35,004 bases of DNA from Chrysochromulina parva (Eukaryota > Haptophyta > Prymnesiales > Chrysochromulinaceae). Position 1 is the first letter of the stretch; the number at the start of each line of letters is the position of its first letter. The DNA lies in NCBI GenBank assembly GCA_002887195.1, contig PJAB01000195.1:1-35004 (forward strand). Reading direction: 5' to 3'. Both the position numbers and the translations under genes were made by a program. Shown here piece after piece: positions 4,254 through 28,750 of this stretch. The notes under the pieces are model-generated. The model was given only the letters and a program-made list of their open reading frames with translations. It was not told the origin of the DNA and made no database searches.

Positions 4254-5626
4254 TCACTCCTCCGCTCTCGGCCGCTTGGCGCCGCCCGCCTGTGCGCGCC
4301 GCTTGGCATGGGCGGCCTGCCTGGACTGCCACGCGGCCACTTCGTCCTTGTACCGCTCGAGATCTGCCGCCGCGAGATCTTCGAGCTCCTCGCGCTCCTC
4401 GGCGGGCAGCTGACGAAACCCGCAGTGGAGCAGCTCGGCCACCGCTGGGCCGAGCTCAACCTCGTCGCCGCCCAGCCTCACCCCGAGCGCCACCTCACAT
4501 CGCTCGCGGAAGAAACCGAGCGCGGGCAGCGGCGGGAGCGGCCCATGCGCCCGACCGTCGCCCTCGCCATCGGGCGCGAGCCCAACGGCCGCGCACTCCG
4601 CAAGGTAACGTTGCCGATCGGCCGCAGCGGTGGCCTCGTGCTCGGCGTGCGTGCGTGCGTCTGCTTCGCGCCATGCCGCCATGACAAGTCGCGAGAGTTC
4701 GGTGGCTGTCGCGGCCGGATGAGCTGCAAGCAGCGCGGGGCGCACTGCTTGGCTGAATGAGGCGAGGGCACTGCGAGGCTTGCGCGGCTGGCGTGCGCGC
4801 TCCTCAGCTTTCCGTTGCTTCTCCTCCTTCGCCACATGCTGCTCGTGCTTGCGACGGCGCGCCTCGGGCTGCCGACGGTACGCCGAGATCGCCTTGCGGA
4901 CCTGTGGGAAAAGGAGGGCGCTGTGGTGAGCACTTGCATGCAGAGGGCACGGAGCAGTTGGCGACGGTACGCCGAGATCGCCTTGCGCACCTCCTCCTCC
5001 TCGAGGTCCTCCTCGTCGCCGTCATCGTGCAGAACGTGGAACAGGTTCGTATCCTCCCAAGGGGACCAGCGCGTGATCACAGCCAGGTACGCACGCACCT
5101 TGGGCCCTTGCGACGCGCCGAAGAAGCGTGCCACGTGCTGCCCGAGCAGCTCATGTCCCTCGGAGCGCCACGCTGCGCGGTGCGCGGAGGCCTCTGCCCG
5201 TGCGGCCTCAACCTCCTCCTGCTCGACCACCTCGTCGTCGCTCCACTCCTCGGGCTCTGCGGGCGGCGGCGGCGGCCAAGCGTCCGCCTGCGCCACGGCC
5301 GTGAGGAACTTCTTCTTCAGCCCGTCCGACTTGAACATTTTGGGTTTGACGATGCCCAGCTCAGCATTTGCCTCCGTGTACGGCAGCAACTTATCGGGCG
5401 CCACCTCCGCATTGTCCTTGGTGTGCAGGAAGCGCACGCGCACGTACGGCACATGGTCCTCGCTGCGTTGGCGGAGGTTTCGCACGCTCCGGATCTGCGA
5501 TGGCCACCACGGGAAACCCTTGATCTTGGCCCACACGAGGTCGCCACGTTGGTAGTCGGGGATCACAGCAGGCACAGCGGCTTGGGCTGCTTCAGCAGGA
5601 GCGGTCGCCATATACGCGTCGGCCAT
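4254..5626 (-). CDS. PWWP / Tudor-like / double HMG-box chromatin protein
   Basis: Exons 5626-4991 and 4901-4254 join in phase 0 to give 427 residues. The start MADAYMATA at 5626 was chosen because the PWWP domain begins soon after it. Residues about 26-44 (RGDLVWAKIKGFPWWPSQI) are a textbook PWWP domain, which reads methylated histone tails and DNA. Around residues 160-212 a second Tudor-like fold is suggested by the stretch ending HVLHDDGDEEDLEEEE, the pattern seen in PDS5/MSH6-type Tudor domains. After a Lys/Arg/Glu helix, exon 2 encodes two HMG-box-like units: RKPRSALASFSQAV through DRQRYLAEC, and LPALGFFRERCEVAL through DLERYKDEVAAW. Both keep the helix spacing, though some core aromatics are missing. 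It is probably a nuclear chromatin reader or architectural protein. It shares a 195 bp divergent promoter with the SPFH gene. Its intron is a young introner-like element. Confidence 0.82.
4902..4990 (-). mobile_element. Introner-like intron in the PWWP gene
   Basis: 89 nt GT-AG intron. Its first 29 bases (from GTGCGCAAGG) are repeated with one mismatch as the first 29 bases of the downstream exon (4901-4873). The rest is a TGCATGC palindrome, the core GTGCTCACCACAGCG, a pyrimidine tract and CACAG. Length is not a multiple of three, so retention would shift the frame. Confidence 0.8.
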
Positions 5627-5821
5627 TCTACACGAGACGTGTGAAGGGTCTTGTGAACAACGGTCGCGTGAACAGTGCGTTATGAGTCGTGCCATACGGT
5701 GTGCGTCGTCGCACAGGTCCAACCGGTTACATGTTTATGTTTCAGAAAGCCTTTTTTGGGTCGTTCGCATCGGCAAAAGCCGGCGGGCGGAATCCTTAGA
5801 TCCTTACCATCTATTATCGCC
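5627..5821. promoter_or_regulatory. Putative bidirectional promoter
   Basis: 195 bp between the divergent starts of the PWWP gene (-) and the SPFH gene (+). No TATA box at a useful spacing was seen. The call rests on geometry only. Confidence 0.4.
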
Positions 5822-6664
5822 ATGGGCAGTGACCTCTCATGTTGCCGGCGCAAAGACGAGAAGCTCGACGAGAAGGGGCAGCCCCTTGTCGAAGTGCCCG
5901 TCGAGGGCGTCGCCGTCGAGGAAGTCGGAGACTGTACCAAAGTCTGCGAGAGAGTCTTCCTCGTGTGCACTCTCGGGCTGTGGGGCGTGTTCGGATTGTA
6001 TACCGTGTCGCCCAAGAAGACCGTGGTAATCCAGCACAATGGGAAGATTACGAGCGTGACAACAAAGACGGGGCTGCACTGGGCCCCTGCTCTCTTTCGA
6101 GACGAGTTCACCGTTTACACAGGCGAGGCGGCGTTCGAAACGGAAGTGCTCAAGATTGTGGACAAGAGCGGCGTGCCGATCATCGTGAGCGCAATCATCG
6201 TGTACAAGGTGGTGGACGTGCTCAAGGCGGCCTTTGAGGTGAACGACTATCAGAAGTTCGTGCGCGCGCAGAGCACGGCCGCACTCAAGATCGTCGTGCA
6301 GAAGTACACGTACGAGGAGTTGAAAGTGGAGGGCGAGCAGCTGAGCCAGGAGACGGTCTCGGCGCTGCAGGTGCGGGTAGAGGTGGCAGGCGTGCAGGTG
6401 CAGTCGATGACGCTCAACGAGCTCAACTACGCCCCCGAGATCGCAGGCGCCATGCTCAAGAAACAACAGGCGGGGGCCCTCCTCGAGGCTCGAGAGATCA
6501 TCGTCGACGGCGCCGTCGGGATCGCCATCGAGGCGGTGAAGAAGCTCGAGGAGCAGGGCGGAATGACGGTCTCCTCCGAGGATAAGGTGAAGATCATGAC
6601 CAACATCATCACGGTGCTTACGGGCGAGGGATCGGCCACGCCCGTGCTGCCGGTCGGCGCTTGA
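5822..6664 (+). CDS. SPFH / band 7 (stomatin-prohibitin) family protein
   Basis: Intronless, 280 residues. The start at 5822 (MGSDLSCC, context GCCATGG) is preferred over the in-frame upstream ATG at 5675, because Met-Gly plus a serine and two cysteines is a typical N-myristoylation/palmitoylation signal. Residues about 44-62 (VFLVCTLGLWGVFGLYTV) form one hydrophobic segment, as in stomatins. It is followed by the SPFH domain (VSPKKTVVIQHNGKITSV onward, with an ALKIVVQKYTYEEL stretch) and a short Ala/Glu-rich C-terminal helix (KKQQAGALLEAREIIVDGAV). Members scaffold membrane microdomains, regulate channels and form oligomeric rings on the membrane. The short form without a long coiled coil resembles hypersensitive-induced-reaction and small stomatin-like proteins. 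Membrane anchoring is well supported; the exact membrane is not. Confidence 0.87.
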   Translation: MGSDLSCCRRKDEKLDEKGQPLVEVPVEGVAVEEVGDCTKVCERVFLVCTLGLWGVFGLYTVSPKKTVVIQHNGKITSVTTKTGLHWAPALFRDEFTVYTGEAAFETEVLKIVDKSGVPIIVSAIIVYKVVDVLKAAFEVNDYQKFVRAQSTAALKIVVQKYTYEELKVEGEQLSQETVSALQVRVEVAGVQVQSMTLNELNYAPEIAGAMLKKQQAGALLEAREIIVDGAVGIAIEAVKKLEEQGGMTVSSEDKVKIMTNIITVLTGEGSATPVLPVGA

Positions 6665-6969
6665 TCCTCGGAATGTGACGAACGATGGATGCGCGTGCTT
6701 ATGTGACGGCTGACGGGATGCCGCAGGATGACGATCAAGGATACATGTAGACTCACTGTGGCTTGTATCATGTATAGCCTGTTCAGCGAATTTCACTGTC
6801 GGCCCTGTTTTAACTTCACACACACGTTCCACATTTCCACACATGGTGGCGCGTGAAATTACTCATGAATTGAAATGCCATGGCGATACCCGTAAGTTTG
6901 GCGTTTCTATTCATAGATGTTTGAGGAATTTCTTGACTCTTCTCTCGCCTCCCTGCGTTGTGTGTATGA
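6665..6969. other. Intergenic, no gene seen
   Basis: 3' region of the SPFH gene and 5' region of the RCC1-permease gene. It has lower GC than the flanking coding sequence. No RNA gene or repeat was recognised. Confidence 0.5.
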
Positions 6970-9900
6970 ATGCTGCCTCCCGACGACGACGACAAACATT
7001 TACACGGCACTCCGATGTTAAAAGTGCAGTGGCCAGCAGCGAACGAGCAGTCCCGCACGCCCTCGCCCAAAATATTCTCGCCGCCTGAGCCGACTGCGGG
7101 CTCGGCGAATTCGGTGGCGGGATGGGCGAATTGGGCCGAGCACCTTTCTCGTGCGATCCAGCCGGCACTACACACGTTCACAGGGGGCGAGGCGAGCCCA
7201 GAGGCCCGGCTGATGCTGCCGGCGAGCATCGAGGATCGATCGCCCAGCCCAGAGGCTGCAGCTGAGACACTGCCGCCTCTGTCTCTCGCGTCGTCCGAGA
7301 CGATGCGTGAAGTGCCGACGGTCGAGGCTCGCCGACGCACGGTACTGCTCACATGGGGCCTCAATTCGAGTGGCCAGCTAGGCTTCGGCGATTTTTCGAC
7401 GCGCATCCTGCCGCGTGCGGTCGATTACTTCAAAGCGACGCGCATGGCGGGCGTCGTGTGCGGTTCGCGTACGACCTTCGTGCTCGACGCCGAAGGCAAG
7501 GTCTTCTCGTTTGGGAAGGGCGAGGACGGTGCGCTCGGCAGCGGCGACCGCGCCACGGCGATGACGCCCCGACTCATCGAGTCTCTCCAACGGCAGCCGA
7601 TCGCACAGATCAAGTGCCGTGGCGCCCACGTGCTGGCCCTGACGGCGCGCGGCCAGCTGTGGGCGTGGGGTCGCGATGAGGACGGACAGCTCGGCAGCAC
7701 CAAGACCGCCTCTGGCAAGCCTCGCGAGCATCACCATTCGATCCCCGAGCGCGTATCCGATCTGATGGGGACACGTGTCCTCCACGTGGCCTGTGGACGG
7801 TGCCACTCCATCGCCGTCGATAGCAACGGGCGGCTGTTCTCATGGGGCGGTAACGACGATGGCGCGCTCGGGCACGGCGATCGCCTCTCCCGCGCCACAC
7901 CCACTGCATGTGCTGCCCTCGAAGGCATGGTGGTGGTCGGAGTAGCATGTGGCTCACGACACACCCTTGCACTCGTCCGCGACGTACCGATGCTTGAGGG
8001 CGGCAAGGAGCGCGCGCTCGACGGCGGGCAAAGCGCTCACGGCGGTGCTTGCGTGTACTCTTGGGGCTGGGGCGTGTATGGCCAGCTCGGGCACGGAGAC
8101 GTGGTGAGCCGTTTGGAGTCCCTTTCGGTTGCATGCGAGCCGTTTGGAGTCCCTTTCGATTGCATGCGAGCCGTTTGGAGTCCCTTTCGATTGCATGCGA
8201 GCCGTTTGGAGTCCCTTTCGATTGCATGCGAGTGCTCACCACGGTGCCACCCTCTTCCCCACAGGCGAGCCGTTTGGAGCCGCGCCGCGTCGAGGCGCTC
8301 TCAGAATTCCCAATTAGGCAACTGGCGTGTGGCTACCGTCACTCGATGGTTGTGTCCGATGACGAACCGCGAGAGGTGCTTGCATGGGGATGGGGCCACG
8401 ATGGGCAGCTGGGTACGGGTAGCTTGCGCGATGCGCTGCTGCCCCAAGTCGTCTCCGGTCTGCCGACGACGGGACGTATCGAGTTGCGGCTAGGTGGTCG
8501 TCACTCGTTGGCTCTGTGCGATGACGGCAAAGTCTTTGCGTGGGGCAAGGACGATGACGGTCAGCTTGGACTCGGGGTGCAGTCCAAGGCCGTCCCCACA
8601 CGGATTGATGCTCTGCGCTCGTCGTCGGTGGCGTTCGAGGTGGTGGATGCCGATTGCGGCTGGGCGCACACAGCGCTGCTCGTCGCCTTCCCAGAGCCCC
8701 AAAGCGCCCCGTCGGTTGACAAGGGCGACGCCGCCGCTACCGAGTCCGGCGGCGAAGAACACGTCTTCGCGTCGCTCAACCGTCGTCCCCATTCGAGCGA
8801 CTCCTCGAACCACAAGTACCCACGCATCTTCGCCTCGGGCGATCTGGAGGGGCTATTCGGGCAGGTGCACTTAATTGCCCCTTAATTGCCCCTTAATTGC
8901 CCCTTGATTGCCCTATTCGGGCAGGTGCTGGGCTCGTCCAACCCATTCATGCTCATCCAGTTCATGAACCCCGTTGCCTCTTAATTGCCCCTTAATTGCC
9001 CCTGTGGCAGGTGCTGGGCTCGTCCATCCAATTTATGCTGATCGAGCGCGTGCTGCGCGCCACGTGCGGCATGACGAGTGAGACGCTGCACAACCAGCTG
9101 CTGCCTGGCTCCACGGTGATGATCGTCTTGGGGCATCTCTTCTTTGCCGTCCAGGGCACATTACTCTCTCGGCGCACGCGTCAGCCGGTGACTGCGCTGC
9201 CGCAGGGCATCAACATCGTCACATTCTTTGCGTGGTCGACTCTCATCATGGCGCCCGTGTATCGTACCGCCCTGCAGCGTAGCGTGCCGGCGGCGGTGGC
9301 CGCGCGCAAGGCGTACGATGCTGGGCTGTGCGCATGCCTCCTCCTCGGCCTACTCGAGCTCGTCGGGGTCCTCTTTGTGGAGACGCTGCGCTCGGTCATC
9401 CCACGTGCAGCGATGCTGAGCGCCATCGCGGGCGTCTCGCTCACCTTCATGGCGATGGGCTTCGCGGTCCAGATCTTTGCCGCTCCCGCCACAGGGATTG
9501 TGTCCATGCTCCTCATGCTCCTCTTCTATGCGGGGCAAGTGAAGCTTCCTTTCAAGATTCCGGGCGGCGTCCTCGCTGTGACGGTCGGTTGGGCACTAGC
9601 AACCCTTTCCGGCGAATTGGGCTACAACTGGTTCGTGCCGAGTGGCGGCGGGCTGCGATCGTTCGCGCCTTATTTTGCAATGCCGACGGTGCAGACCGCC
9701 TTCCTCACCACCCTCTGCGAGCCCGAGTTCTGGCAGTGCCTGTCCGTAGTTATCCCCATGTGGACCGTGACGCTTGTCAACAACCTGTCCAACATCCAGT
9801 CCGCCTCGTTCGTAGGAGATGAGTACTCGCCACGCGAGTGCCTGCTCGGTTGCGCCCTGATCGACCTGGCATGCGTCTTCGTGGGCAATCCCTTCCCATC

Positions 9901-11272
9901 GTGCGTGTACATAGGCCATCCGGCGTTCAAGGCCATGGGTTGCCGCGTCGGCTATCTGTATCTCAACATCCTGCCCACCATCTTCTTCGGGTGCCTGCAG
10001 GGTGCGGTGCTGCTGCAGCAGATCGTCCCCATTGAATCGGGCGTCGGCTTTATTCTTTGGGTCGGCCTGCAGATCACTGCGGGTGGCTTCGAGGGCGACC
10101 ATACGCCTGAGGGATGGAAGCATGGGCCGGCCGTCGCGCTTGGGTTGCTCCCCTCCATTGCTGCGTGGTCGTGGCAGTCGATCGAGACGACTTTCACAGC
10201 AACGCGCACCCTTTACTGCAAAGCCATGCCATATCCGGCAGGCCCGTCGGGAGAGCGCATGTGCCAGATGGAGCTGCACGAGCTCATGCAGCCGGCGTCG
10301 ACACCGATGGCCAGCGCAGACTCCGACGTGGGCGTGTTCCAACGAAACCTGTACAACCTCTATCTCTCGGGGGTGTACGCGCTCGCCAACGGCTACCTCC
10401 TCACGGCAATAGCGCTCTCCTCCATGCTCGTGCATATCATCGACGGCAACTTCGACCGCGCGTCGCTCTGGCTCATGCTCCTTGCCATCTTCGCATCCGT
10501 CGGGATCATCCACTCGCACAAACTCGACCCCTTCTCAGCCAACCAGCTCTTCCCCGCCATGTACTTGCTCGGTGCTCTCATCCTCCTCCTCTGCCACCAA
10601 CTCAAGAATCGGGAGGAGCAGGTTCGCGAGCTGCAGGTCCGGTGGGTTTCGTCATTAGTCGAGCTCGCCGAGCGCTTCCCCGATGCCCTCGCGCCCGCCC
10701 AGAGCACCATCGACCAGCTTGCGAGCCGTTTCGGCCTCGCCGGAGTTGGCGGCAGCGGCGGTGGCGTCGGTGGCGGCGGCCGCGGCGGCGGCGGCGGCAG
10801 CGGCAGACCAATCTCGCCCCAAAGGGGCGAGGCGCGCGGTGTGACGCCGAGGCCGTTCAAACGCGCTTCGAGTAGCGGCCCATCGCCCGTGCCTGCTTCT
10901 CTCTCGAGGACTCTCCTCGAGACTTTCGGCGTCGATTGGCAAACGACCCCCGACGCCGGCGGCACGCTAGGCGGCGCACGCCGCGTCACCCACGTACCGG
11001 TAACCGCTGACGACGCCGCCAAAGCGGAGGCCGACGAGCCGCTCGACACGGCGCCTCTTGCCGAGATGCCCACGCCCGCGAGCCAGGTGCACCGTCGACG
11101 CGAGCCGCAGCTCGGCACGAGCGCAGGCAGCTCGCGCTTCGCGGGCGGCCTCTTCCATTCACAGGTCAATTCACAGGTCCATTCACAGGCTGATATCAGC
11201 AGGAGCGTGCCCTTCGGCAGCTTCCCCGACTCCAAGGCCGAGCCCTTGCTGAATGATGTGCAGCCGGTGTAA
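6970..11272 (+). CDS. RCC1 beta-propeller fused to an NCS2-type permease
   Basis: Exons 6970-8103, 8265-8864 and 9011-11272, both joins in phase 0, give 1331 residues. Residues about 127-520 hold seven RCC1 blades, each marked by a W/F-G...G.LG.G pattern (for example SWGGNDDGALGHGD). From KYPRIFASGDLEGLFGQ (562-578) the protein becomes a polytopic NCS2-like (xanthine/uracil permease superfamily) transporter: the GDLEG start, TALPQGINIVTFF near 640, many helices, and GIIHSHKL near 1075 are family landmarks as I know them. Exon 2 spans the RCC1/permease boundary, so the fusion does not depend on guessing a splice between domains. After about residue 1150 there is a Gly-rich linker and a disordered tail. 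Propellers of this kind bind small GTPases or act as scaffolds, so one could regulate or place a nucleobase transporter; this is inference. The start at 6970 is the first ATG of the frame and is uncertain. Confidence 0.8.
8104..8264 (+). mobile_element. Introner-like intron with tandem expansion
   Basis: 161 nt GT-AG intron. It opens with GTGAGCCGTTTGGAG and the downstream exon opens with GCGAGCCGTTTGGAG. Inside, a 31 bp unit (GAGCCGTTTGGAGTCCC, then TTTCGATTGCATGC) is repeated four times. It ends with the core GTGCTCACCACGGTG, a pyrimidine tract and CACAG. The exon-derived part is the piece that expanded. Confidence 0.85.
8865..9010 (+). mobile_element. Intron holding a copy of the old exon junction
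   Basis: 146 nt intron. At 8913-8940 it contains CTATTCGGGCAG followed by GTGCTGGGCTCGTCCA, a copy of the upstream exon end joined to the downstream exon start. On both sides lie TTAATTGCCCC repeats. The true downstream exon copy starts at 9011. The outer GT and AG keep frame; the inner copy would read into a stop. Confidence 0.75.
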
Positions 11273-11797
11273 TAGAAGTGACCTTGAAGAGGCACAGTAG
11301 CCTCACAAAGGTCCCAGCAACTCACGCGTGCTGCGCCTCCCGTCCCCTGCGCCCTCCGCCCTGCGCTGTGGTTTCGTCGTCTCGTTGGTTGGCGGCGGTT
11401 TACACGTCCGCGTCGAATGTCCTCTCGTCTCTGGCACGTGTGTGCGGACTGTGTGTTCTCCAGTTCCTTCGCCCGGTTCGGTTCTTCCACGAGGCAGCTT
11501 TCCCCCGTTTCTCTACTAACAAGGCTCTTACTGGCAGTGTCTCATTCAACTACTCTGTTCCACTCCCGCTCTACATGTATAACGTCTTGAGTACACGCTC
11601 ACGGTCGCTCGCCGCTCGCCCTGCCGTCGGACTCCAACACTCTCCACTAACTGTCTGTCGTACCCCCCCCGCGTGCTCTGCTGCCAAAATCCATGCAAGA
11701 TGGCGTCGTCGGACCGTCATCGTAGTCTCTGCAGCGCCTTCAAGGCTGCGAAGGATTCCCTCCACAGGCACGTCAAGTTGGGCCCGTTCAGAGCCCT
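11273..11797. other. Intergenic between convergent 3' ends
   Basis: 525 bp between the permease stop and the EF-hand stop. Frames that cross it have no recognisable protein content. I see no RNA gene. Confidence 0.55.
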
Positions 11798-12304
11798 TCA
11801 AAAGTCAGTGCCCATGGGGTCTTTCATCGCCGTGATCTTGCTGGCAATCGCTGATTCGGACGCCGCGTAGTGTGTAGTCAGGGAGAAGGGCTTCTTGTAG
11901 GGTGCCGAACGGAGCGCCTGCAGCAGGATGTGGTCCGCATCCACCCCAAACGTCATCCGCCACCCGTTCATAAACTCGCCAAAATCGAGGACGCCATCCC
12001 GGTTGGTGTCAAACTTCCGTAAGAATCCCTGAGGCAAGGGCACACACACGAGGCTGTTCGGCGCTAGCGGCTCTATGGACGGGAAAGGCACGAGTGTTCA
12101 TACCTTGATCTGTTCGGGCGTCATCGGCGTGCCCGTTCCTGTCTCGGTCCCAGGCTGCTTGAACACCTTAGCGAGCTCCTGAAAGCGAAGCCCGCCGCTC
12201 GCGTCCCAATCAAATTTTTTGAGGGCCTCACGAATTTGCCGGTCGTACTTGGGGATCTCGTGAGGCACGGAAAACTCTTCGTGGATGCGCATCGCGACGG
12301 GCAT
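11798..12304 (-). CDS. Two-EF-hand calcium-binding protein, two exons
   Basis: Exons 12304-12104 and 12028-11798 join in phase 0 across a 75 nt GTATGA...CCTCAG intron, giving 143 residues from MPVAMRIHEEF. The frame is open further upstream to 12523, but that start would leave only 6 bp to the kinase stop, so the inner Met at 12304 (or 12292) is preferred. The loop DWDASGGLRFQE comes before the intron and DTNRDGVLDFGE after it; both are 12-residue EF loops with acidic residues at positions 1, 3 or 5 and 12, so the intron falls between the two hands. The N-terminal sequence HEEFSVPHEIPKYDRQIREALKKFD resembles calcium-binding proteins of flagellates. It is probably a small calcium sensor; the partner is unknown. 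It lies 3' of a kinase gene on the same strand but is not joined to it. Confidence 0.75.
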
Positions 12305-12529
12305 GGCTGGAGCTTGCTGCACGAGCTTGTGTGCGGGCGCGAGGGCCCCGCGAAAGCAAAGTTGGAAAAGTATATTCGTCGTTTCAAGTTCTCCCCACAA
12401 GCAAAGTGATCCGACGGCAACGTTTCCAAAATATGCGTCACAAAAAACAACACTCGGACACAGCTCTTTTTCTACTCTTTCTATTTTCCGTTCCTCCCCC
12501 ATGCACGTTCTCAAGTGCCCCACTTGCGA

Positions 12530-13945: not shown

Positions 13946-14201
13946 CGTTGATCTGCAGTGCAAGTAAGTAAGCAAGCTTGTTTTCTTTGTAGCTTGCTTG
14001 ATGCAATGCGAGCGAATGAGCGGGACGTGCTTGTAAAAAGAAACGCGATCGCGACGGCGCCTAATGGCGTTTGTGAGTGTGTACCCGTGATAAATGGGCG
14101 CGAAAGGTAGGGGAGGCTCGGCTGCGTTGAGAGGATCTCAACAAAATGCTCGGTACGGCGCTCACGCTCGGAAAAAGGTACAGAGAGGAAAGGGCGGTGA
14201 G
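13946..14201. promoter_or_regulatory. Putative bidirectional promoter
   Basis: 256 bp between the kinase and Nudix starts. A TATAAG at 14265, just inside the Nudix frame, would fit transcription starting near 14295 and translation from the ATG at 14310. The evidence is geometry plus one short motif. Confidence 0.35.
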
Positions 14202-17737: not shown

Positions 17738-17768
<31 letters not shown>

Positions 17769-19040: not shown

Positions 19041-21699
19041 ATGAGATGTCGTGAACGCCTCGTCAGGCCGCTCCTCCTCGTCTGCCTCGTTGGTTACGTT
19101 CTGATTGCAACGTATTGCGTTGCAGTCTACTTGCCGGGCTCGCCAACGTTGCCTTCATCAGGCCAGATCGCAAGCGTTGGCTGGCCACGCATTTGCTTCG
19201 TGTATGACGGTACTCACGCAGACGTTCTGACCTCGAGAACGTTGAACGACTTACTGCGCGAGCTTGCAACAGCATCGCCGCACGCAGACGTGGTCGTTCT
19301 ACATGCAGGCTCTGGCGTGCCGTTGCACGTTCCCGACGGCGTGCGCTCAGTCGGCCTGCCCCGTTCCGGCCACAAGTACGACGCATCGCCAGCGCTCGCC
19401 ACGTCCCTCAGGGTGCTCGAGTGGCTGCGTGGGCAGTTGCCGTTCACGCACATCGTCTTCCACTGCACTGGAGGAGCCGCACATTACGCCATCCTCGCCC
19501 GGGGGCAGGCTCTCGCCCTGCAAGGCACCTCCATCACGCTTGTTCACTCTGGGTCCGAGCCGTTGCGTTGTGGGCATGGGCGCGGTGGTCTGGGTGAGAC
19601 CGCGGGTGGGGCCGCAGCTGCGATCCCGGGCGTGGCGACGATCAACGTGTCGGCGGACGGGCTCGAGCAGGAGCACATGCAGCGTCGCGCAGCCGCACAT
19701 GCAGACGCTTTCCTCGCGCCGCGCGCTACCCTCCGCGCGCTGCGCTCGTGTGAATGGGTGCCCAGGACGGCGCTTCGTCCGCGTCTGGGCGCCCTGGACG
19801 ATGGTGCCCCTGACGGCGCTATGGACGAAGACGGCCAGGGCGGCGCTCGGGGGGGGGCGTTGATTGGGCCGGTGGTTGGGCCTGCGGAGGCAGCCGCTTC
19901 GTCAGCTTCGTCAGCTTCGTCAGCGGTGGTTGGGCCTACGGGGGTAGCGGCTTCGTCAGCGGCGATGGCGGCGTGGTCGCGCTCGGCGTCTTCGCTCCTC
20001 CGTCTCTGGTCTGGGCTGGCGCCGCTGACGAAGCTGACGAATTCGGCGTACCGGTACGGGCTGGCGCACTCGGCGCCGATTCATGGCAACGCTACGCGCA
20101 TGCGCGCACTATACCCGCGCACGGCGGCATGGGCCCGCGAGCAAGAGCAGACTTCACGAGGGTCGCTCTCTGGAGGGTCGCTCTCTGGAGGGTCGGCCAG
20201 CTTCGACGGCGCTGGCGCCTCCCTTGCTGCCCTCGACGGAGGCATCGGCGCGCCTCTGGTGAGCGTGTGCATCGTCCATCACGAGCGTGGTACGCTCCTC
20301 AAGCAAGCACGTGCTCACCACGGCGTCCGTCGCGCTCGCTGCGCATGCAAGTGCTCACCACGGCGCCCCTCCCTCGCCCCGCAGGTACGCTTCTCAAGCA
20401 AGCGCTCCGCTCGCTGCGCATGCAGACTCTGCCGGCGGCTCTGTTCGAGGGTCTCGTCGTCGACGACGGCTCGACAGGCCGCGAGGCAATTGAGGCCCTC
20501 GACGAGGTGAGTCGACGATTGCCTGCTGATTGCCTCGATGATTGCATGCGGTGAGGCAATTGAGGCCCTCGACGAGGTGAGTCGACGGGCCGAGTTGCGA
20601 AGTGGTCGCTACGCGGCATTCAAGTGCTCCCCACGGCGCCCTATGCCCGCAGGTGAGTGGGTGGGATGAGTTGCGAAGTGGTCGCTGGCGACTGATTCGG
20701 CTCGTATCTCCCGTGTATCTCGGAAGAGCTCGCAACGAGGCGGCGAGGCACGCCCGCGGTGAGTCCCTCCTTGTATCTCCCCTGTATCTCCCCCTATCTC
20801 CCTTGTATCTCGGAGGAGCCCGCGGTGAGTCCGAGACCCTCCTTCTTCTCAAGGACGACAACGGCCTCTGATGGCCTCTGATTGCCACTGATGGCTTCCC
20901 CTCATTGCATGCACAGGTGAGTTCCTCTACTTTCTGGACGACGACAACGCCCTCAAACCGCACGCCCTTGCCACACTGCTCCGTGCGGCTGTCGCTTCGG
21001 GCGCACACATCCTCACCACCCCGAATGAAAAGTGGCCCTCGCTCGAGCCACCCCCTACAGCCGACGCGTACGACACGGAGCTCTGGCTTCCCTTGGGGGG
21101 GTCGGCCGCCCTCGGCATCGTGCGCAACTGCTTCGGCGACGCAGCGGCGCTGGTGAGCCGCGCTGCCGTTGTGAAGACCTCCGTGCCTTGCATGCAAGTG
21201 CTCACCACGGCGCTCCTCCCTCGTTCACAGGTGAGCCGCGCTGCCTTTGAGGAGCTCGGCGGCTTCACGGAGGATGTGGGAGTTGGTCACGAGGACTGGG
21301 AATTATGGGCGCTTGCCGTGCTCCGCGGCTACGTACTCCAGGTGAGTGCCACCGAGTGCCACCGAGTGCCACCGAGTGCCACCGAGTGCCACCGAGTGCC
21401 ACCGAGTGCCACCGAGTGCCACCGAGTGCCACTGAGTGCCCCCCTCATTGCATGCCGTGCTCCGCGGCTACGTGCTCCAGGTGGTGCCTGAGGCGTTGTA
21501 CTGGTATAGGATCGGCCCTGGACGCGGCGGCGCTATGTTGGGCGATTCCCTCGGCAGTACGGCGCGCGCGCGCGCCCAGCGGCAGGCGAACCTAGCACGC
21601 AGCCTTCGACCGTACCGCGCAGCCCTCGGCAGTTGGCCTGAGGGGCGGGCAGTGCTGCAGCTCGCGCAGAGCCTCGAGCGCGAGCCACCGCCGAGCTGA
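19041..21699 (+). CDS. GT2-family glycosyltransferase, type II membrane, six exons
   Basis: Exons 19041-20289, 20385-20506, 20653-20758, 20917-21152, 21231-21341 and 21481-21699 keep frame throughout (2043 nt) and give 680 residues. Residues 11-30 are a signal anchor (LLLVCLVGYVLIATYCVAVY), so the enzyme should be a Golgi type II protein. Residues about 60-410 have a Rossmann-like start (ICFVYDGTHADV, VFHCTGGAAHYAI), perhaps a second GT-B-like domain, then a variable Ala/Ser/Gly region. The GT-A domain starts at VSVCIVHHERGTLLKQALRS. VVDDGST (441-447) and YFLDDDNA (497-504) give the nucleotide-sugar and DXD metal sites, and GVGHEDWELW (588-597) is the conserved ED motif of GT2 polymerases. 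The five introns all contain exon copies; two carry the introner core. GT2 with HEDWELW suggests a glycan polymerase-like activity; donor and acceptor are unknown. Confidence 0.85.
20290..20384 (+). mobile_element. Introner-like intron 1 of GT2, two cores
   Basis: 95 nt. It opens with GTACGCTCCTCAAGCAAGC, repeated with one mismatch at the start of exon 2. The core GTGCTCACCACGGCG occurs twice (20311 and 20351), the second after GCATGCA and before the pyrimidine tract and GCAG. CGCTCGCTGCGCATGCA is also shared with exon 2, so the first core sits inside an exon copy. Confidence 0.85.
20507..20652 (+). mobile_element. Intron 2 of GT2 with intact old junction
   Basis: 146 nt. In its middle (about 20531-20611) lies a copy of exon 2's last 24 bases (GAGGCAATTGAGGCC, then CTCGACGAG) joined to GTGAGT and a copy of exon 3's first part (GAGTTGCGAAGTGGTCGCT). 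A decayed core (GTGCTCCCCACGGCG) and CCCGCAG close it. Confidence 0.8.
20759..20916 (+). mobile_element. Intron 3 of GT2 with copies of both flanks
   Basis: 158 nt. It contains TATCTCGGAGGAGCCCGCGG then TGAGTCC, a copy of the end of exon 3 and the donor, and TTCTCAAGGACGACAACGGC, a copy of the DDDN-coding start of exon 4. It ends ATTGCATGCACAG. No GTGCTCACC core is present. Confidence 0.7.
21153..21230 (+). mobile_element. Introner-like intron 4 of GT2, stop-free
   Basis: 78 nt, a multiple of three, with no stop. It opens with GTGAGCCGCGCTGCC, identical to the first 15 bases of exon 5. TGCATGCA, the core GTGCTCACCACGGCG, a pyrimidine tract and CACAG follow. Retention would add 26 residues in frame beside the conserved GGF motif. 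Confidence 0.8.
21342..21480 (+). mobile_element. Intron 5 of GT2 with a 10 bp minisatellite
   Basis: 139 nt. It starts GTGAGTGCC, then eight to nine copies of ACCGAGTGCC. Its last 28 bases (from TGCCGTGCTCCG to CTCCAG) copy the last 28 bases of exon 5 with one mismatch. The duplicated unit therefore ends at AG and the intron runs from the GT after copy one to the AG of copy two. Confidence 0.8.
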
Positions 21700-22384
21700 G
21701 CCGTGCGGCGCTCATGATTGCGCGGGGAGTTTACTTGGCACGCCCCACCCCCGACAGCGTCAGCGGCACAGCGCGGCACCGTCGCCGTCGGCGACAACAT
21801 GGGCGACACCCGACAAGCACGGACCCGCACGTCATCACAATCATACTCATAGCAGAAAGTAGACAGACACTTGTCCGGTCGCATGGTTCACGCGATCACG
21901 ACGTCACGAATCTCATAAACATAAAAGAAGTTATGTGTAAGTGTGTGTATATACCGAATCATCGGACCTGAGTGCCCGGCGACGATGTCACGGCCGAGCA
22001 CATCGCGACGCACATATCGCGCACGCGCGGGACACCGGGCCCCCGCTCTTCATCCACTCGACTTATGTCGTTATGTCAGCACACATGCTACTGTACAGTG
22101 TACACACGCCATGCGTCCACACACATGATGTCACATTCCATACATACGCATGCACACAGAGAAACGCGCGCGCACATGCGCCACATCAGCCATGCACTGC
22201 TCCTGCGATGCCACTGCCTCGGGTTGGCTGTGGCCTGTGCACCTGGAGCACTTGGGAGGCAAGTTCCACACCGCTTTTGGGAGGCAAGTTCCACTCAAGC
22301 CTAATTTGGGAGGCAAGTTCCACACCGCCGCCACTCAAACCGCCGCTGCATGTTGGCTTGCCGAGGACTCTACCAGGACTCATT
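21700..22384. other. Intergenic between convergent 3' ends
   Basis: 685 bp between the GT2 stop and the ankyrin stop. It holds purine/pyrimidine-alternating CA-rich stretches around 22070-22170 and a three-copy repeat at 22253-22329. No gene or RNA was recognised. Confidence 0.55.
22253..22329 (+). repeat. GGGAGGCAAGTTCCAC triplicate
   Basis: Three copies of GGGAGGCAAGTTCCAC at 22253, 22279 and 22308 with spacers of 10-13 bp, close to the 3' end of the ankyrin gene. It could lie in that gene's 3' UTR. Confidence 0.85.
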
Positions 22385-25300
22385 CTACCAGTCGCAGGTG
22401 ACGCAACAGAGACATCGATTGGTCACACCACTGCTGTGAGTCGGGATGGTTCCCGCAGCACCAACTGGCGCTGCTAACGGCTCCTCCCACGGCCAGCGCC
22501 ACGGGCCCGGCGCTGGAGTGGACGCAAGCGCGGGCGGCAAAGAGACGAACAGCCCAGCTGCACTGGTGGCCTCGGTGTTCACACCGGAACGGCCGGTGTG
22601 ATGATGGAAGCCCAACCAACCGCCGTGGTTCAGTTTAGCGTCAAGTTGCCCAAACCAGCCACCGCTGCTGGTCGAGTCACTCTTCTGAGCGCCCGTAACG
22701 GCGCCCTCAGCAGCGGCCCCATCAGCCCAGGCGCCGTCCCGAGCACCGAGTCCAAACCAGCCGCCCTGACCACCGCTGCTGGTCGATTCACTCGATGGCC
22801 GACGCTCACCACGACGCTCAGCACGATGGCCGACGCTGCTGGTCGGGTCACTCGATGGCCGACGCAACTGCCCTGACGGCTCGGGACGACGCCCTGCCTG
22901 CTCGGGACGGCGCCCTGCCTGCTCGGGACGGCGCCCTGCCTGCTCGGGACGGCGCCCTGCCGGCTCGCCTCCGATCTTCATCACGCTCTCAGCAGCGGCG
23001 GCCCCTGCAGCGCTCGCGTCAGCACTGCCAGCCTGCGAGGCGCCGTCCCGAGCACCGAACCCAAACCAGCCCCCGCCGCCGCCCGAGCCACCGCCGGAGG
23101 GCACACCGCCCCCGCTGCCACCGGCTTGCTGACGGTGCTGTGAACGTTCACCGTGCTGACGTTCACCGGCTTGCTGACGGTGCTGGAGGATGAGGTTACG
23201 CTCCTCCGGCGTGACAACTAGCATTACGCCGGGCCCCGCCACCGTCCGCTGCTCGAGCCGTTGAGCTTGTCGTTGAGCTTGCCGTTGAGGAGCGCGGTGA
23301 GGGTCAGCAGCGCGCGCAGCAAGCTCCGCTTCGATGAGACGCACAATCATTGCGTGAGTCTTGGCCTCTTCTCCCTTGGCGTGCCGCTTGGTGGTCGTCT
23401 GCAACGGCTGCTGCGGCGGCGGCAGCGGCGGCTGGTGCTGCTTCCCCATCTTTGCCCAGCCCAGCGCGTCACGACCATGCTTATCGCGCACGTCGAGGCT
23501 CGCCCCCGCCACCAGCAGCGCCTCGACGACTCGTATGTGCTGATGGAAGCACGCGATCATGAGTGGAGTCGAGCCATCGGCCATCGGAAGATCTGGCGTC
23601 GCGCCGCCGTCGAGCAAAGACTCAACACACTGGGCATGCCCATTCTGGCACGCGATGTAGAGCGCGGACGAGCCTGGCACGCGGATGCGCCCTGTGGGAT
23701 CTTTCCAAGTCGCCTCGTCGGGTATCGCATGCCACTCGAGCAGTGCATTGACGCACAGCGTATGCCCCTCCTGCGCCGCAATGTACAATGGCGAGAAGTC
23801 GTCTTTGCGTGACGCACCCACATCCGCGTGGTTCTCGAGTAACAAGCGGACCACCTCGGTGTGACCGTTGAGGCACGCTTGGTAGAGCGCCGTGTAGCCG
23901 CGCCCCACCCGGGTGTTCACGTCCGCATGGGCATTCAGCAAGGCACGCACCACCCTCGTGTGCCCTGCCGCGGCCGCTTCCACAAGAGGTGTGCTCGGCC
24001 ACTCCCGCCACGCCACTGGAACCAGAACGTTCGGATCGACATTCGCCTCGAGAAGCTTGCTGAGCGCCTCGGCGTGCTTCTGCGGTCCTCCGGCGAGCGG
24101 CCCTCCAGTGGCCTGCCGCCCGGAGGCGTACTTGACAAGCTGCCACGCCGTCTCCACTTCGCTCAGCTCGCTCGGCGCCGCGCCGGCCGCCCCCGGCTGG
24201 ACGGCGGAGGAGGATAGAGCGGTGTTGCCAATCGAATCGCACCGGCGTCCGAACGTGCTGTGAATGTGAACGCTGTTCGTCCGGAAGGCGGAGCCGTCGA
24301 GGCTACCAGCCGCGCCACCCGCTGCGCCGCCCGCTGCGCCGCCAAAAGCTTCGCCTCCAGCGATGCCGCTGCTCCCACCTTTCTGACTCGCGCCGAGGTG
24401 CTCGAGCTTGTCCAGGTAGTCCGCATCGTGCTCCATGGGTCGCAAGAGCTCGTCACGGCGCGTTTCGTCAGGCTCGCCCTGGTGCCCACGGCGGCGCGTT
24501 TCGTCAGGCGGGATCCCGAACGTGCCGGCTCGGTACACGTCTGCCTGCGCCATGGCGGAAAGCTTCCTCTTCGTATACTCCTTGTACGCGTCGGTCGTGA
24601 ACCCGTCGCTTGGGATCGGGCCGCTCGCAATGTTCGGACCCGTGCGGTCGAGCGTTACGCCCAAGTCGAGCGTTGCTGCCTGCTTGGCCGCCCGGGCCGC
24701 GGCGTGCTCCTTGGCTTCAGCCAGGGCTGTCGCCTTGACCACCGCTCGCTCAGCCCGCGCCGACTCGTGCGCGGCCGCCTTTGCCGCCGCCTCGGCCGCC
24801 TTGGCTGCCTTGGCTTTGGCCCTGGCTGCCTCTTCAGGGCCCACCATTTGATTTGGGCCCTCCATGTCGTCGTCGGCCTTCGGTGCCTCTATGCCCGCCG
24901 CCTTGCGCGTCGAGCGAAAGCCCGAGGTGACTGCATTCCGCGTCGAACGGAAGCCTGCGGCGACCGCCGCCGCCGCTGCAGTCCCTGCCTTTGATGCCGC
25001 ACTCGCAGACGCTGCTTTTGATGCCGCAGGCGCAGCTTCCGCTTTTGCTGGCCCTGCCTTTGATGGCGCAGATGCCGTAGACTTCGCCTTTGGTGCCGCA
25101 GCTGCCGTCCCTGCTTTCGGTGCTGCTGAAGATGCCACCCCTGCCTTTGGTCCCACAGCGGACGGAAGTGCTCGCGGCAGCAACGGGTCAGCTAGCGGCA
25201 CTGAAGGAGCTGGGGGAGCTGTCGGCTCTGGAGCAGCTGCTGGCGCGGGATTGGGTGCGGGCGATGTCTGCTGGACATCTTCGCCGCCCTCGGCACTCGT

Positions 25301-25498
25301 GGGGTCGTGCTGTCTTTCCTCTGCATCCGGAAGAGATCTCTGCACGAATAGTTCCTCTGCATGCCGTGCAGCCAAAGAGAGATCCGTATCATCCGTATCC
25401 GTGCGCTGAATTTTGCTTGGCTGCTCGAATGAGACAGGCTTTGAGGCCAGGTTGGGTTCGGTGTCGGGAACCTCTATGGTGCTCTGTTGGGCTCCCAT
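22385..25498 (-). CDS. Ankyrin-repeat protein with Ala-rich N terminus
   Basis: Intronless, 1037 residues from MGAQQSTIE at 25498 (the frame is open to 25567). Met-Gly-Ala-Gln-Gln-Ser could be myristoylated. Residues 1-290 are an acidic then Ala/Lys-rich, probably helical low-complexity region with a repeated GFRSTRN/GFRSTRK element. At about 495-685 there are five to six ankyrin repeats (STPLVEAAAAGHTRVVRALL, TALYQACLNGHTEVVRLLL, SPLYIAAQEGHTLCVNALL, SALYIACQNGHAQCVESLL, TPLMIACFHQHIRVVEALL). The C-terminal 300 residues are Gly/Ser/Gln-rich with four RRPEQAG units and three to four GWFG motifs, two in the longer form GWFG[FL]GARDGA. The ankyrin stack is a protein-binding scaffold. The repeated WFG motifs could be short linear binding motifs, like the phenylalanine repeats of trafficking proteins. 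Partners are unknown. Confidence 0.83.
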   Translation of the reverse strand: MGAQQSTIEVPDTEPNLASKPVSFEQPSKIQRTDTDDTDLSLAARHAEELFVQRSLPDAEERQHDPTSAEGGEDVQQTSPAPNPAPAAAPEPTAPPAPSVPLADPLLPRALPSAVGPKAGVASSAAPKAGTAAAAPKAKSTASAPSKAGPAKAEAAPAASKAASASAASKAGTAAAAAVAAGFRSTRNAVTSGFRSTRKAAGIEAPKADDDMEGPNQMVGPEEAARAKAKAAKAAEAAAKAAAHESARAERAVVKATALAEAKEHAAARAAKQAATLDLGVTLDRTGPNIASGPIPSDGFTTDAYKEYTKRKLSAMAQADVYRAGTFGIPPDETRRRGHQGEPDETRRDELLRPMEHDADYLDKLEHLGASQKGGSSGIAGGEAFGGAAGGAAGGAAGSLDGSAFRTNSVHIHSTFGRRCDSIGNTALSSSAVQPGAAGAAPSELSEVETAWQLVKYASGRQATGGPLAGGPQKHAEALSKLLEANVDPNVLVPVAWREWPSTPLVEAAAAGHTRVVRALLNAHADVNTRVGRGYTALYQACLNGHTEVVRLLLENHADVGASRKDDFSPLYIAAQEGHTLCVNALLEWHAIPDEATWKDPTGRIRVPGSSALYIACQNGHAQCVESLLDGGATPDLPMADGSTPLMIACFHQHIRVVEALLVAGASLDVRDKHGRDALGWAKMGKQHQPPLPPPQQPLQTTTKRHAKGEEAKTHAMIVRLIEAELAARAADPHRAPQRQAQRQAQRLEQRTVAGPGVMLVVTPEERNLILQHRQQAGERQHGERSQHRQQAGGSGGGVPSGGGSGGGGGWFGFGARDGASQAGSADASAAGAAAAESVMKIGGEPAGRRPEQAGRRPEQAGRRPEQAGRRPEPSGQLRRPSSDPTSSVGHRAERRGERRPSSESTSSGGQGGWFGLGARDGAWADGAAAEGAVTGAQKSDSTSSGGWFGQLDAKLNHGGWLGFHHHTGRSGVNTEATSAAGLFVSLPPALASTPAPGPWRWPWEEPLAAPVGAAGTIPTHSSGVTNRCLCCVTCDW

Positions 25499-25741
25499 GT
25501 TTGCAGCTGGTGACGGCTTATGCGGCGCTCGCCAAGCCGTCCTCTGCTGACCCTGCACTGGCAGCACATGGGAATTCGACGGTTACAAAATGAACTTTTA
25601 TGTTCGAGACGAAACCAGAGGACCAGTGAGGTGAGAGCTGAGAGGAGACTAACAGACAAGATCGAGGCTCAAAATGGACGCTCGGAAAACTTGCTCCCTT
25701 TTCGGCAAGTTTCGCGTCGCGACCAGCCCCAGCTTCTTCCG
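25499..25741. promoter_or_regulatory. Putative bidirectional promoter
   Basis: 243 bp between the ankyrin gene (-) and the small gene (+). Geometry only; no motif was recognised. Confidence 0.3.
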
Positions 25742-26289
25742 ATGATCAACGTCACGCCCTACCACGTGTATAGAACACGCCTCTACTACGAAAACTTGCA
25801 CAAAGCGTATCGGTCTGAGCATGCAACAAATGCACTCAACCCACCCATCTTTAGCCGCGCGTTCTGCGGAGGAGGCAACGGCAACGGGCCCGCATTCCGC
25901 CAAGATGTGCGCTCGCACGTAGCACTGCCACTGAGCTCGCACCATGCTGATGCGCATGTCGCCGTGCCTTCTCGCAGATGAACACGCTGCCCACATCCCC
26001 CAGGCCTCTGTTCATCGAGTCTCACCAGAGGAAGAGGGAGCCGTTCGCCCGCCCGGGCAGCACAGCGCTGGCCTTTGAGAACACCGGACGTCACTTCACG
26101 CAGAGCGGAGCCAGCAGAGTCATGCCCATGAGGAAAGATGGAACGCTGATGTCGAATCCGGCGTCGGATGGTGTGCAACGCATGGACAGGCCAACTTTCA
26201 CTCCGCGTCCTCGAACAGCGTTTGAGGCACGGCCAGCATACGATGGCGATCTCCGTCGCTTCTCGTCGAGCACGGCTCGCAGCTTTTGA
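25742..26289 (+). CDS. Small unknown protein, tentative two exons
   Basis: Exons 25742-25906 and 25978-26289 join in phase 0 across a 71 nt intron (GTGCGCTC to CTTCTCGCAG), giving 158 residues. The N terminus MINVTPYHVYRTRLYYENLH is Tyr-rich. The C-terminal part has Pro/Arg-rich short motifs (RPLFIESHQRKREPF, DRPTFTPRPRTAFEARPAY). The pattern of scattered Pro, Arg and aromatic residues resembles small flagellar or axonemal proteins, but I do not recognise a family. If the splice is wrong, 25978-26289 can stand alone as 103 residues from its own ATG. The composition looks coding, and the intron is free of exon copies. Confidence 0.45.
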
Positions 26290-26796
26290 CGACGCGCAGT
26301 CGTCGCGGAGTTGCTGCAGCAGTTATCACAGCAGTTACGACAGCCCAATCTCGTCGAGGATTCGAGACGAGCATGGCGCTCGCGGTGCGCACTTTGGAGC
26401 GATCTGTTCGTCGCAGCCGTCGCAGGGCGACCATATCCGCTGTCGTGTGAACGCGCGGTCCGACGTCAAAGCGTACTTGTGAACTAGACGTATCCTAAAA
26501 GAGTCGACGACGTGTACTGTGCGAGCCACTCGGTCATGATTGAATCATTCCTGTGCGATGTTTTCGGCGTGGTGATCACTGTGTCTCACTGTGACACATC
26601 GAGAGAAGGCGGTGCCGCACCGGGACCCCGCCGCGCCGGGACGCGCGCACGGATACGCCGCTATTAGAAGGAAAGCTGTAAGCTCACTGCGCCAAGGGGT
26701 ACTCCTGCACCGCTCGAATGACATACGACTCGAACAGGAAAACGTTCGAATGTCATCTGTGAAGTCGAACGGTAGGTCTGCAACGGCTGCTACATC
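26290..26796. other. Intergenic between convergent 3' ends
   Basis: 507 bp. It contains a short repeat AACGGTAGGTC at 26769 and 26800 that partly overlaps the end of the GT77 coding region. No gene seen. Confidence 0.55.
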
Positions 26797-28718
26797 CTAC
26801 AACGGTAGGTCGGCGGGTAGCGCAAAGCCCTTGGTGCAGTTGATTAGAGGGCGCGTGCCCGGCGGCAGCAGCTCCCACGCCCTCCATCCGGGGAAGTTTG
26901 GGTTCTCCTCCTCCGCGCAGAACGAGGCCGAGTCTGCATGCATGCAATCAGTCGCAATCAGTCGCAACCAGTCGCAATCAGTCGCACTCAGGGTGCACTC
27001 AGCATCCAATCAGTGCAATCAGGGTGCCTCGTCGCTCACCTGCCAGGGCGTGACGCATGCGTGCATTGAAGAGGCGGGTCTGCTGCGCACCTGTGGGGAG
27101 GCAGGGCGGGGCGCCGTCGTGAGCACTCGCATGCGCGCGTTGAAGAGGCGGGTCTGCTGCGCACCGCCCACGTCTGTGTACCGGAGCCGACGCATCTCGG
27201 GTAGCGTGAGCTCGACCACGCGGGCGTCGTACCTGCATGCAATCAGTCGCAATCAGAGACGCATCTCGGGGAGGGAGATCACACCTCGCGAGTGGGGCGT
27301 ACTGCGGAGATCGGAGCTCCCGCGGGGAGCATCATGGGCAATCAAGGGAGATCGCACCTGGGAGATCGCACCCTCGCGAGTGGGGCGTACTGCGGAGATC
27401 GGAGCTTCCGCGGGGAGCATCATGGGCAATCAAGGGAGATCGCACCTGGGAGATCGCACCCTCGCGAGTGCAGGGCGTACTGCGGAGATCGGAGCTCCCG
27501 CGGGGAGCACTGCGCTGACCCGAGCTTCCGCCGAGCCCGCTGCGGCGCTAGCGCCGTCGTGAGCACCCATCCAGACGCTCAATCGCACGGCGCCGTCGCG
27601 AATGTGCGTCGGCAAGCTCGGATGGTACCAGAAGCTGTGCGCGCGGAAGGGCAGGTCGCCGCCTCCGAGGGCCTTCGGCAACCGGTGCCATCGCGCCACG
27701 TTGAACATCGAATCCAGCGGGCAGGGGAAGGGAAGGCGCATGGACCGAGGTGCATTCACATGACGGCAGCCGCGCAGCAGGCCCCACCACTTGTCACACG
27801 CACACTCAAGCGGGGGCACCAGGAGCGTCGCGTTGAGCGCCGTCGCGAACGCGAGCCAATCGCGCACGGCCGTGCCTGATGAGGGAGGTCATCAGAGGCC
27901 ATCAGAGGCCATCAGCATGCAGTCAGCGGCAATCAGCGATGGGCCCTCAAGGCCTATCAGCATGCAATCAGCATGCAATCAGCATGCAATCAGCGAGGGG
28001 CCCTTCATGCGCATCAGAGGCAATCAGCGGCAATCAGCGAGGGGCCCTCCATGCCTATCAGAGGCAATCAGCGGCAATCAGCGGCAATCAGCGGCAATCA
28101 GCATGCATTCAGGCGTACGTTGCAGGTCGGCGAGCGCCACGTGGCGGCGCGGGTCCGCCTCCGACGGGTAGGCGCGCCCGATACGGCGCCATGCGTCGTC
28201 GTCCACTAGGGACCCTAGCGGACGGACGAGGAGCGTTGTATCGGGCACGTCGTAGTAGCTCGGAGGGTCGGCGAACCTGATGAGGGACGCAATCAGCATG
28301 CAATCAGCATGCACCCGAGCGTTGTATCGGGCGCGTCGTAGTAGCTCGGAGGGTCGGCGAACCAGAGGCCTGCCTCGCGCGCGCGCTGCCGCTTGCCGTA
28401 CGCGTAGGTCGGTGCGTCGCCAAACTGGAACGTGAGGTGCACAGCGAGCGGCTGCTGCGCGAGCGCCGTGTCGGGCGCACCGGGCAGCGCAGCGGTGGCG
28501 TGCCAGCGGTGAGCGTGCTGTGCGAAGAACGCATGCCCGGTGAGGAAGGCATGGGCAGGCAGCGTGCCGATCGCAAACGGAACTTGGGCTTCGTCAGTCT
28601 CGAGGGCGGCCTCGCTAAGGAAGATGTCCCGAGTCGCCGGTGTGAACGATGCAAGCAGCTCCTCATCCGCCGACGCCGCGGCGTACGCGCCGCCGCCGCC
28701 GCCGCTGATGCCGCCGCC

Positions 28719-28750
<32 letters not shown>

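Follow-up and report, generated by a model that had tools for sequence, protein, structure and literature searches.

A probable introner family with long flanking exon repeats in the haptophyte Chrysochromulina parva

The DNA studied here, which we call the window, comprises 35,004 nucleotides of the Chrysochromulina parva assembly GCA_002887195.1 (contig PJAB01000195.1, positions 1 to 35,004, forward strand). It contains a PWWP gene, a gene with RCC1 repeats, a GT2-like gene and a gene that an earlier note on this DNA labelled GT77, and a 15-bp core, GTGCTCACCACGGCG, recurs in their introns. The earlier note took this core as the mark of an introner family, that is, of a mobile element that makes introns. 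Two intron callers were used, one anchored on the core and the other a splice-and-repeat scan blind to it. The predicted introner-derived introns of the window are as follows.

4902..4990, minus strand: predicted introner-derived intron of the PWWP gene, 89 nt; core at 4919-4933; repeat copies at 4959-4992 and 4870-4903 (32/34 identical)
8104..8264, plus strand: predicted introner-derived intron of the RCC1-repeat gene; core at 8232-8246 (one mismatch); exon repeat GAGCCGTTTGGAG at both ends
20290..20384, plus strand: predicted introner-derived intron of the GT2-like gene, 95 nt; two cores, at 20311-20325 and 20351-20365; repeats at 20289-20308 and 20384-20403 (19/20)
20577..20652, plus strand: predicted introner-derived intron, 76 nt; core at 20624-20638 (one mismatch); repeats at 20575-20610 and 20651-20686 (31/36)
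21153..21230, plus strand: predicted introner-derived intron, 78 nt; core at 21198-21212; repeats at 21152-21171 and 21230-21249 (19/20)
27091..27164, minus strand: predicted introner-derived intron of the GT77 gene (label of the earlier note), 74 nt; core at 27112-27126 (one mismatch); repeats at 27128-27165 and 27054-27091 (36/38)

The core lies at all the places where it had been reported. The scan blind to the core recovered, to the base, the introns proposed for the PWWP and RCC1 genes and the end of the last intron (27164), and all introner copies of the window stand in the sense of their host gene, as claimed. With up to three mismatches the window holds 30 core matches, well above the mean of 3.26 and the maximum of 9 in 100 shuffles; chance or low complexity as a source of the matches was ruled out by these shuffles and by reversed controls in the genome. 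The palindrome said to precede the core is found for the most part: five of the seven cores are directly preceded by GCATGC, while at the other two, 20311 and 20624, GCAAGC and GCATTC take its place.

The individual introns differ in how well their surroundings read as coding sequence. The exon frames are compatible on both sides of the PWWP intron, and the PWWP domain is found by Pfam. The RCC1 intron contains about four tandem copies of a 31-bp unit, the first at position 8106; owing to this array, the core-anchored caller, which otherwise gave the same six introns as the blind scan, started this one at 8135, and it was with this start that the phase proved incompatible in the codon-usage test described below. 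In the same test the coding signal is not sense for the 20577-20652 intron, nor on the right flank of the 27091-27164 intron, on whose strand an open reading frame (ORF) at 28296-29048 contains the Pfam domain Nucleotid_trans. The exon ORF at the 21153-21230 intron gives a weak GT2 match, and the filler of this intron (from 21172) matches three other places in the genome at two to three mismatches.

Not every core match can be read as an introner. The near matches at 27552, 30934, 31889 and 32882 are without GCATGC and, by eye, without a tract followed by CACAG, and the same holds for one exact match:

32018..32032, minus strand: exact core match, not clearly a family member; without GCATGC or acceptor; weak repeat (16/19), inserted length 42

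The surrounding region, 31889-32032, is a cluster of core-like GCGCCCATCACGGCG/GCGCTCATCACGGCG repeats without introner anatomy.

We searched the whole 45.07-Mb assembly (2,199 contigs, of which the window is C195). The core at up to one mismatch has 1,004 and 977 matches on the two strands (1,981 in all), against 8 and 17 (25) for the reversed pattern, so the core is far from being restricted to a few genes. More demanding patterns had no match at all in their controls: GCATGCAA plus core at up to two mismatches occurs 789 + 774 times (1,563), a 24-mer at up to three mismatches 896 + 895 times, and the exact core followed after 4-24 bases by YACAGGT 193 + 197 times (390). Outside the assembly, one exact 23-mer was found in the IMG/VR contig 3300027760_000958 (L130), which we take to be phage-like (cyanophage-like) from the resemblance of its frames. 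There, positions 4495-4554 at the contig end carry an exact GCATGCAA plus core, the tract and CACAGGTGAG, probably alga DNA from another sample. Viral carriage was rejected, as the contig was judged to be probably a chimeric assembly; it alone was inspected for this purpose among 14 stretches.

To describe the element, 129 stretches were fetched and added to the window (about 0.32 Mb, overlaps counted), giving 128 distinct copies at up to one mismatch, 105 of them exact; copies with fewer than 120 bases before them or 100 after them were left out. About 40 nt long, the repeated unit has the form (TT)GCATGCAA-GTGCTCACCACGGCG-C-pyrimidine tract-CCCCACAG and runs from GCATGCAA through the core, whose CTCAC is the putative branch point, to the pyrimidine tract and CACAG. 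The unit lies between long direct repeats, which the earlier note had not mentioned. Repeats with a local score of at least 13 flank 75 of the 105 exact and 13 of the 23 one-mismatch copies, but just 5 of 32 two-mismatch copies and 3.1% of 798 mispaired controls. In the 88 repeat-flanked copies with at most one mismatch they measure 13-66 bp, and in 28 of the 88 they are perfect. Among the 92 copies with an acceptor-like site, 70 have a right repeat at the acceptor that exceeds the 99th percentile of the controls, and the left copy of these starts with GT in 60, with GC in 3 and otherwise in 7. The usual order is exon, GT and left repeat copy, filler, GCATGCAA, core, tract, CACAG, GT and right repeat copy.

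It had been proposed that one short sequence supplies the splice signals of these introns. This holds for the branch point, the tract and the acceptor, while the donor and most of the 5' half of the intron appear to come from the left copy of the target exon repeat. As the donor would be provided by the left copy and the right copy usually sits at the acceptor, splicing would restore the exon. The median length of the 56 in-register introns is 76 nt (10-90% range 70-89). Their CTCAC has its A 20-34 nt (median 27) before the end of the AG, which agrees with the 25-30 nt proposed for the branch point.

The edges of the unit are less uniform. It starts at GCATGC, before which the sequence mostly varies among copies, and a filler of more than 3 nt separates the repeat from GCATGC in 45 of 66 copies. 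The left edge is variable; the 3' end is constant in the intron copies, though selection requires this there, and several exonic copies are cut at ...CGGCG. No inverted termini were detected: the longest inverted match between the two ends of the unit never exceeds 5 nt and measures 2-3 nt in 50 of the 53 copies compared. A piece, TTGATTGCCACTGATGRCCTG, has 263 genome matches at up to two mismatches (control 0). Two copies (L012, L052) start with an intact donor, GTACGT, but have no acceptor themselves; the right repeat would provide one. As side observations, two copies in L054 and one in L105 end in ...CCTAATTAG and not in CCCCACAG, as if 3' modules had been swapped, and tandem arrays alternate unit and exon repeat two to three times at a spacing of about 60-90 bp (L012, L045, L058, L026, L129 and G000:C475:16343-16531).

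Whether these insertions read as introns was assessed with a codon-usage model self-trained on open frames and applied to 59 in-register GT or GC introns, all of them with flanks of 90 nt or more. Sense coding was found on the left flank of 46, on the right flank of 49 and on both flanks of 38. In 32 of these 38 testable introns the phase is kept across the predicted splice, where one third would be expected (p ~1e-10). From 34 spliced peptides, 10 were picked by eye for their resemblance to known domains, and in 9 of these 10 the Pfam alignment crosses the spliced junction (helicase C, ABC transporter, melibiase, pyridine-nucleotide reductase, metallophosphatase, AMPK glycogen-binding, ERO1, myosin head and one gelsolin); a further gelsolin match stops just before it. 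Read at the level of sequence, the element would enter exons with splice sites from itself, the target or both, and splicing would restore the mRNA.

The ERO1 gene (L109), whose flanking 27-base repeat is perfect, could be compared with relatives: 26 proteins were found, 14 read and 10 aligned, and 8 of the 10 read straight through the junction. Since these records may come from transcripts as well as from DNA, they confirm the junction without proving an empty site. The ERO1 query also matches a Prymnesium polylepis protein (78%, over 30% of the length of the query), in line with a haptophyte host. The predicted frames of three relatives (P0028, P0029, P0030) start exactly at the junction, and in a fourth (P0032) a Leu-rich run ending in Q leads into it, like a translated tract and CAG.

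Many copies of the element are predicted introns, but not all are. A sample of 60 exact copies, drawn irrespective of splicing, comprises 27 in-register introns, 11 others with an acceptor-like site, 9 copies in tandem arrays, 7 with a repeat but lacking an acceptor (6 of the 7 with inserted lengths that are multiples of three), 4 with neither and 2 probable chance matches. Copies without usable splice sites tend, as far as their lengths indicate, to be in-frame exonic insertions. The inserted length, meaning the unit and one repeat copy, is a multiple of three in 11 of 14 copies with strong repeats outside the in-register GT/GC introns and the tandem arrays, against 12 of 56 introns (Fisher p 0.00012). 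The three exceptions are L048, L051 and L012, the last of which can be read as an intron that brings its own donor; in the tandem or GCATG-less remainder 6 of 11 inserted lengths are multiples of three. An example is L110, with a perfect 30-base repeat and a predicted protein that reads ...SSG[QTVLQATAALHASAHHGAISP]QTVLQATAALAEVSLVPANRELIARAGAIPALVSLL...; this protein is armadillo-like by eye, and one distant relative carries Pfam PF00514, which was not used as evidence. Several of the exonic copies end at ...CGGCG, without tract or acceptor.

These exonic copies also bear on the length of the duplication. Their repeats have a median length of 30.5, against 28 for the 56 introns (p 0.32), in a set of 14 exonic copies that was hand-picked after their inserted lengths had been seen to be multiples of three and in which L020, L026 and L045 are flagged as tandem. 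A minimum intron length as the cause of the long duplications is thus unsupported. As exonic and intronic repeats are alike in length, long duplications seem to arise with the insertion itself rather than through selection on the length of introns.

Taken together, the high copy number, the flanking repeats that each copy has of its own, the sense bias and the conserved phase lead us to conclude that the repeated element is very probably a mobile, intron-making family, an introner with the anatomy given above. Near-identical introns occupy many positions across genes, and the family envisaged in the earlier note comprises about 2,000 copies, against 25 or none in the controls.

As for how the element inserts, we favour a mechanism that is either retroposition-like or template-switch-like. 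A further-reaching possibility, less likely than not, is that excised spliceosomal intron RNAs sharing a 3' segment are the mobile molecules, copied into staggered breaks and cut at either end. In the favoured scheme the target would be broken with a stagger of 13-66 bp, and the template, either excised intron RNA or a DNA copy, would be copied from a primer provided by the target's 3' end at the break. Copying would end at or near the GCATGC palindrome (as in 21 of 66 copies) or farther upstream (as in the rest), and rejoining would duplicate the staggered region. Where the repeat starts with GT, its left copy would become the donor and the 5' half of the intron, and splicing would remove the unit together with one repeat copy; where no usable splice site results, the insertion would survive mainly if its whole length is a multiple of three. 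That the template in the insertion step is RNA is conceivable, though we would not lean on it: an excised-intron RNA explains why the intact ends of the unit match intron ends, and selection for splicing explains it too. Retroposition of short or long interspersed elements (SINE/LINE type) is known for target duplications of variable length and for frequent 5' truncation. Duplications of variable length, a feature of target-primed retroposition, are what is found here (13-66 bp); unlike in the SINE/LINE type, the unit is about 40 nt long, no poly-A or similar tail was seen and no partner LINE was identified. One filler, AGGCAACTCAGCATGC, chosen because it was already common to three loci, occurs at nine genome places at up to one mismatch. 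Such fillers, common to few copies only, suggest that daughters may inherit part of a parent's left half. The genome has five RVT_1 domain matches (G000:C324, C103, C34, C1434 and C2182), of which four are uninterrupted by stops and lie in open reading frames 1345-2709 aa long; nothing ties them to the insertion.

Several observations weigh against the introner reading or against the route just outlined. Splicing itself is predicted from the genome sequence. For 14 of the 59 introns, the spliced product has no reading frame that stays open across 120 nt of both flanks, and 21 of the 59 lack a sense coding signal on both sides, although neighbouring introns may explain part of the closed or non-sense flanks. 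Among the exact copies, 30 of 105 have no repeat above threshold, and no clear target motif was found at the far end of the repeat. An intron may also occupy this position of the ERO1 gene in several relatives, and its shared ancestry would be hard to reconcile with a 27-base repeat that is perfect and looks young; repeated hits on the same AG/GT, perhaps as independent introns in related species, are possible. A parent's left half was rejected as the source of all fillers, two of the four tested being shared and the two others unique or nearly so. Selection for spliceable or in-frame products explains the GT and AG edges, so these edges are no proof of an RNA template. Simple reverse transcription primed at the 3' end of an intact intron would not be expected to leave exonic units cut at ...CGGCG. 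Neither a source element nor a specific enzyme was identified.

A serious rival is template switching during DNA repair or replication, in which a microhomology jump at a break leads to a genomic copy, about 25-60 nt are copied and a second jump returns behind the exit, so that a templated insert ends up between the two copies of a duplication, with no reverse transcription or dedicated enzyme. We regard this as a real possibility, of the same order as an RNA-templated route. The end of the repeat overlaps the first 1-8 bases of the unit in 12 of 66 copies, four exonic copies (L125, L057, L045 on the minus strand, L028) have GGCG or CCACGGCG before the left repeat, like the end of the unit, the units are cut at both ends, and long flanking repeats surround other payloads too. 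Yet the filler of more than 3 nt in 45 of the 66 copies sits at the very edge where such an overlap would lie, and the GGCG match is absent from most exonic copies. Moreover, template switching alone does not explain why one 23-base sequence supplies so many insertions, and it accounts for the coincidence of intact ends with splice sites only through selection.

Two further explanations are much less probable. A non-autonomous cut-and-paste DNA transposon, similar to the miniature inverted-repeat (MITE-like) introners of other algae and dinoflagellates, would be in line with a survey that reports target-site duplications, terminal inverted repeats or both in 59.2% of 130 assessable families and whose authors read most introners in this way (PMC9860276). 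Such transposition fits poorly and is very unlikely here, since the copies have no inverted termini and variable unit ends, and since their duplications measure 13-66 bp, against the 3-9 bp given in that survey for previously characterised families; the survey also notes that splice sites are recruited in varied ways (PMC9860276). Ordinary tandem duplication of exon pieces containing AG/GT, with the shared sequence spread later by gene conversion or by convergent selection of splice signals, appears more improbable still. Duplicated exon sequence does flank every copy counted in register, and the payload of the 27358-27445 intron (listed below) is not recognised. However, selection for splicing cannot create a shared 23-mer at 1,563 places, copies without splice function carry the unit too, and copies with perfect repeats already contain it.

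The closest known systems share some features with the family and differ in others. Family 1 of Symbiodinium microadriaticum resembles it in taking the donor from the target duplication, but has a 4-bp duplication and terminal inverted repeats (PMC9860276). Family 5 of Chrysochromulina sp. TARA_PON_109_MAG_00232 shares the haptophyte host, short introns (70 nt in the example given) and the absence of terminal inverted repeats; compared by description, it has a 4-bp duplication, its own donor and a co-opted acceptor, the reverse of most copies here (PMC9860276). The introners of Micromonas are likewise repeat introns present by the thousands at new positions, and its IE-C class, with an average length of only 67 nt, conserves a motif for the branch point (PMC3879977). 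According to the same paper, IE-A-like partial copies never occur within coding sequences, whereas we infer in-frame exonic copies. In Amoebophrya the direct repeats of introners measure 3-5 nt (PMC7789003). Another study, of 213 introns, saw direct repeats at or close to the borders of every one and gives a model of error-prone repair at breaks (PMC11782384). Those repeats measure 4-30 bp (mean 11.4, similarity from 71%) and belong to single, diverse introns of several classes (PMC11782384), so that long repeats at single introns have precedent; here a family shares its payload and has repeats of up to 66 bp, 28 of 88 of them perfect. In intron gain by tandem duplication of AGGT, too, duplicated exon sequence becomes part of the intron, without the shared repeated sequence that lies between the duplicates here (PMC4974935). 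Our literature search covered titles and the beginnings of abstracts, with subscription papers mostly and preprints wholly outside it, and within this scope we found no description of introners with long duplications and no match to the core sequence. The duplications here are longer than those described for other introners in the literature examined, which hints at a different intron-making route.

The origin of new introns is a long-standing question, and the prevailing view of known introners is that they are DNA transposons whose target duplications are short. The family described here would illustrate how little sequence suffices for an intron: a branch point, a tract and an acceptor, with the target giving the rest. 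The length of the duplication and the in-frame exonic copies give direct access to the insertion reaction and to the products that are lost to selection. Moreover, because the perfect repeats (28 of 88) suggest recent activity, the process might be caught in living populations. If excised introns are indeed the mobile molecules, any spliced copy, or another payload bearing a branch point, could become a parent; introners would then arise through RNA, by a process separate from DNA transposition, and this process would also write new in-frame peptides into proteins where splicing fails.

Other payloads in the genome, in some cases, show equally long duplications. A payload-blind scan, enriched for the core since most loci were fetched by it, returned 72 places: 49 with the core in sense, 6 with an antisense core (wrong-strand readings of core insertions), 7 with CTGAT/TTGAT repeats, 1 with TTAAT repeats and 9 others. 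Of the 17 core-free places 10 score at least 23. After deduplication the reversed control was left with 10 places: 5 reversed core insertions and 5 others, none of which scores above 14.5. The window contributes six places with the core and four without; one of the latter, 3633-3682, is doubtful, as it lies inside a block of 50-bp repeats, and the scan predicts introns at the others:

8925..9010, plus strand: predicted intron; repeat of 36 nt, payload of CTTAATTGCCC-type repeats
27358..27445, minus strand: predicted intron with a 45-nt repeat, payload not recognised
28277..28362, minus strand: predicted intron; repeat of 45 nt, payload different from the core unit and made of TGCATGCTGATTGC repeats that end in CCCTCATCAG

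The last of these represents a second intron family, made of 10-bp CTGATTGCCT/CTGATGACCT repeats ending in TGCNTCCCTCATCAG, and the examples read have similarly long duplications. The CTGAT-type acceptor end, TGCATCCCTCATCAGGT, has 475 + 432 genome matches (907) at up to one mismatch, against none in the control, and some core copies carry repeats resembling the CTGAT type upstream (TTGATTGCCACTGATGACCTGCCTTGCATGCAA). The repeat block around the doubtful place extends over 3580-3843 and consists of 50-56 bp repeats with ACGTCAAGGGTTTCGTCCCTGGGAT units.

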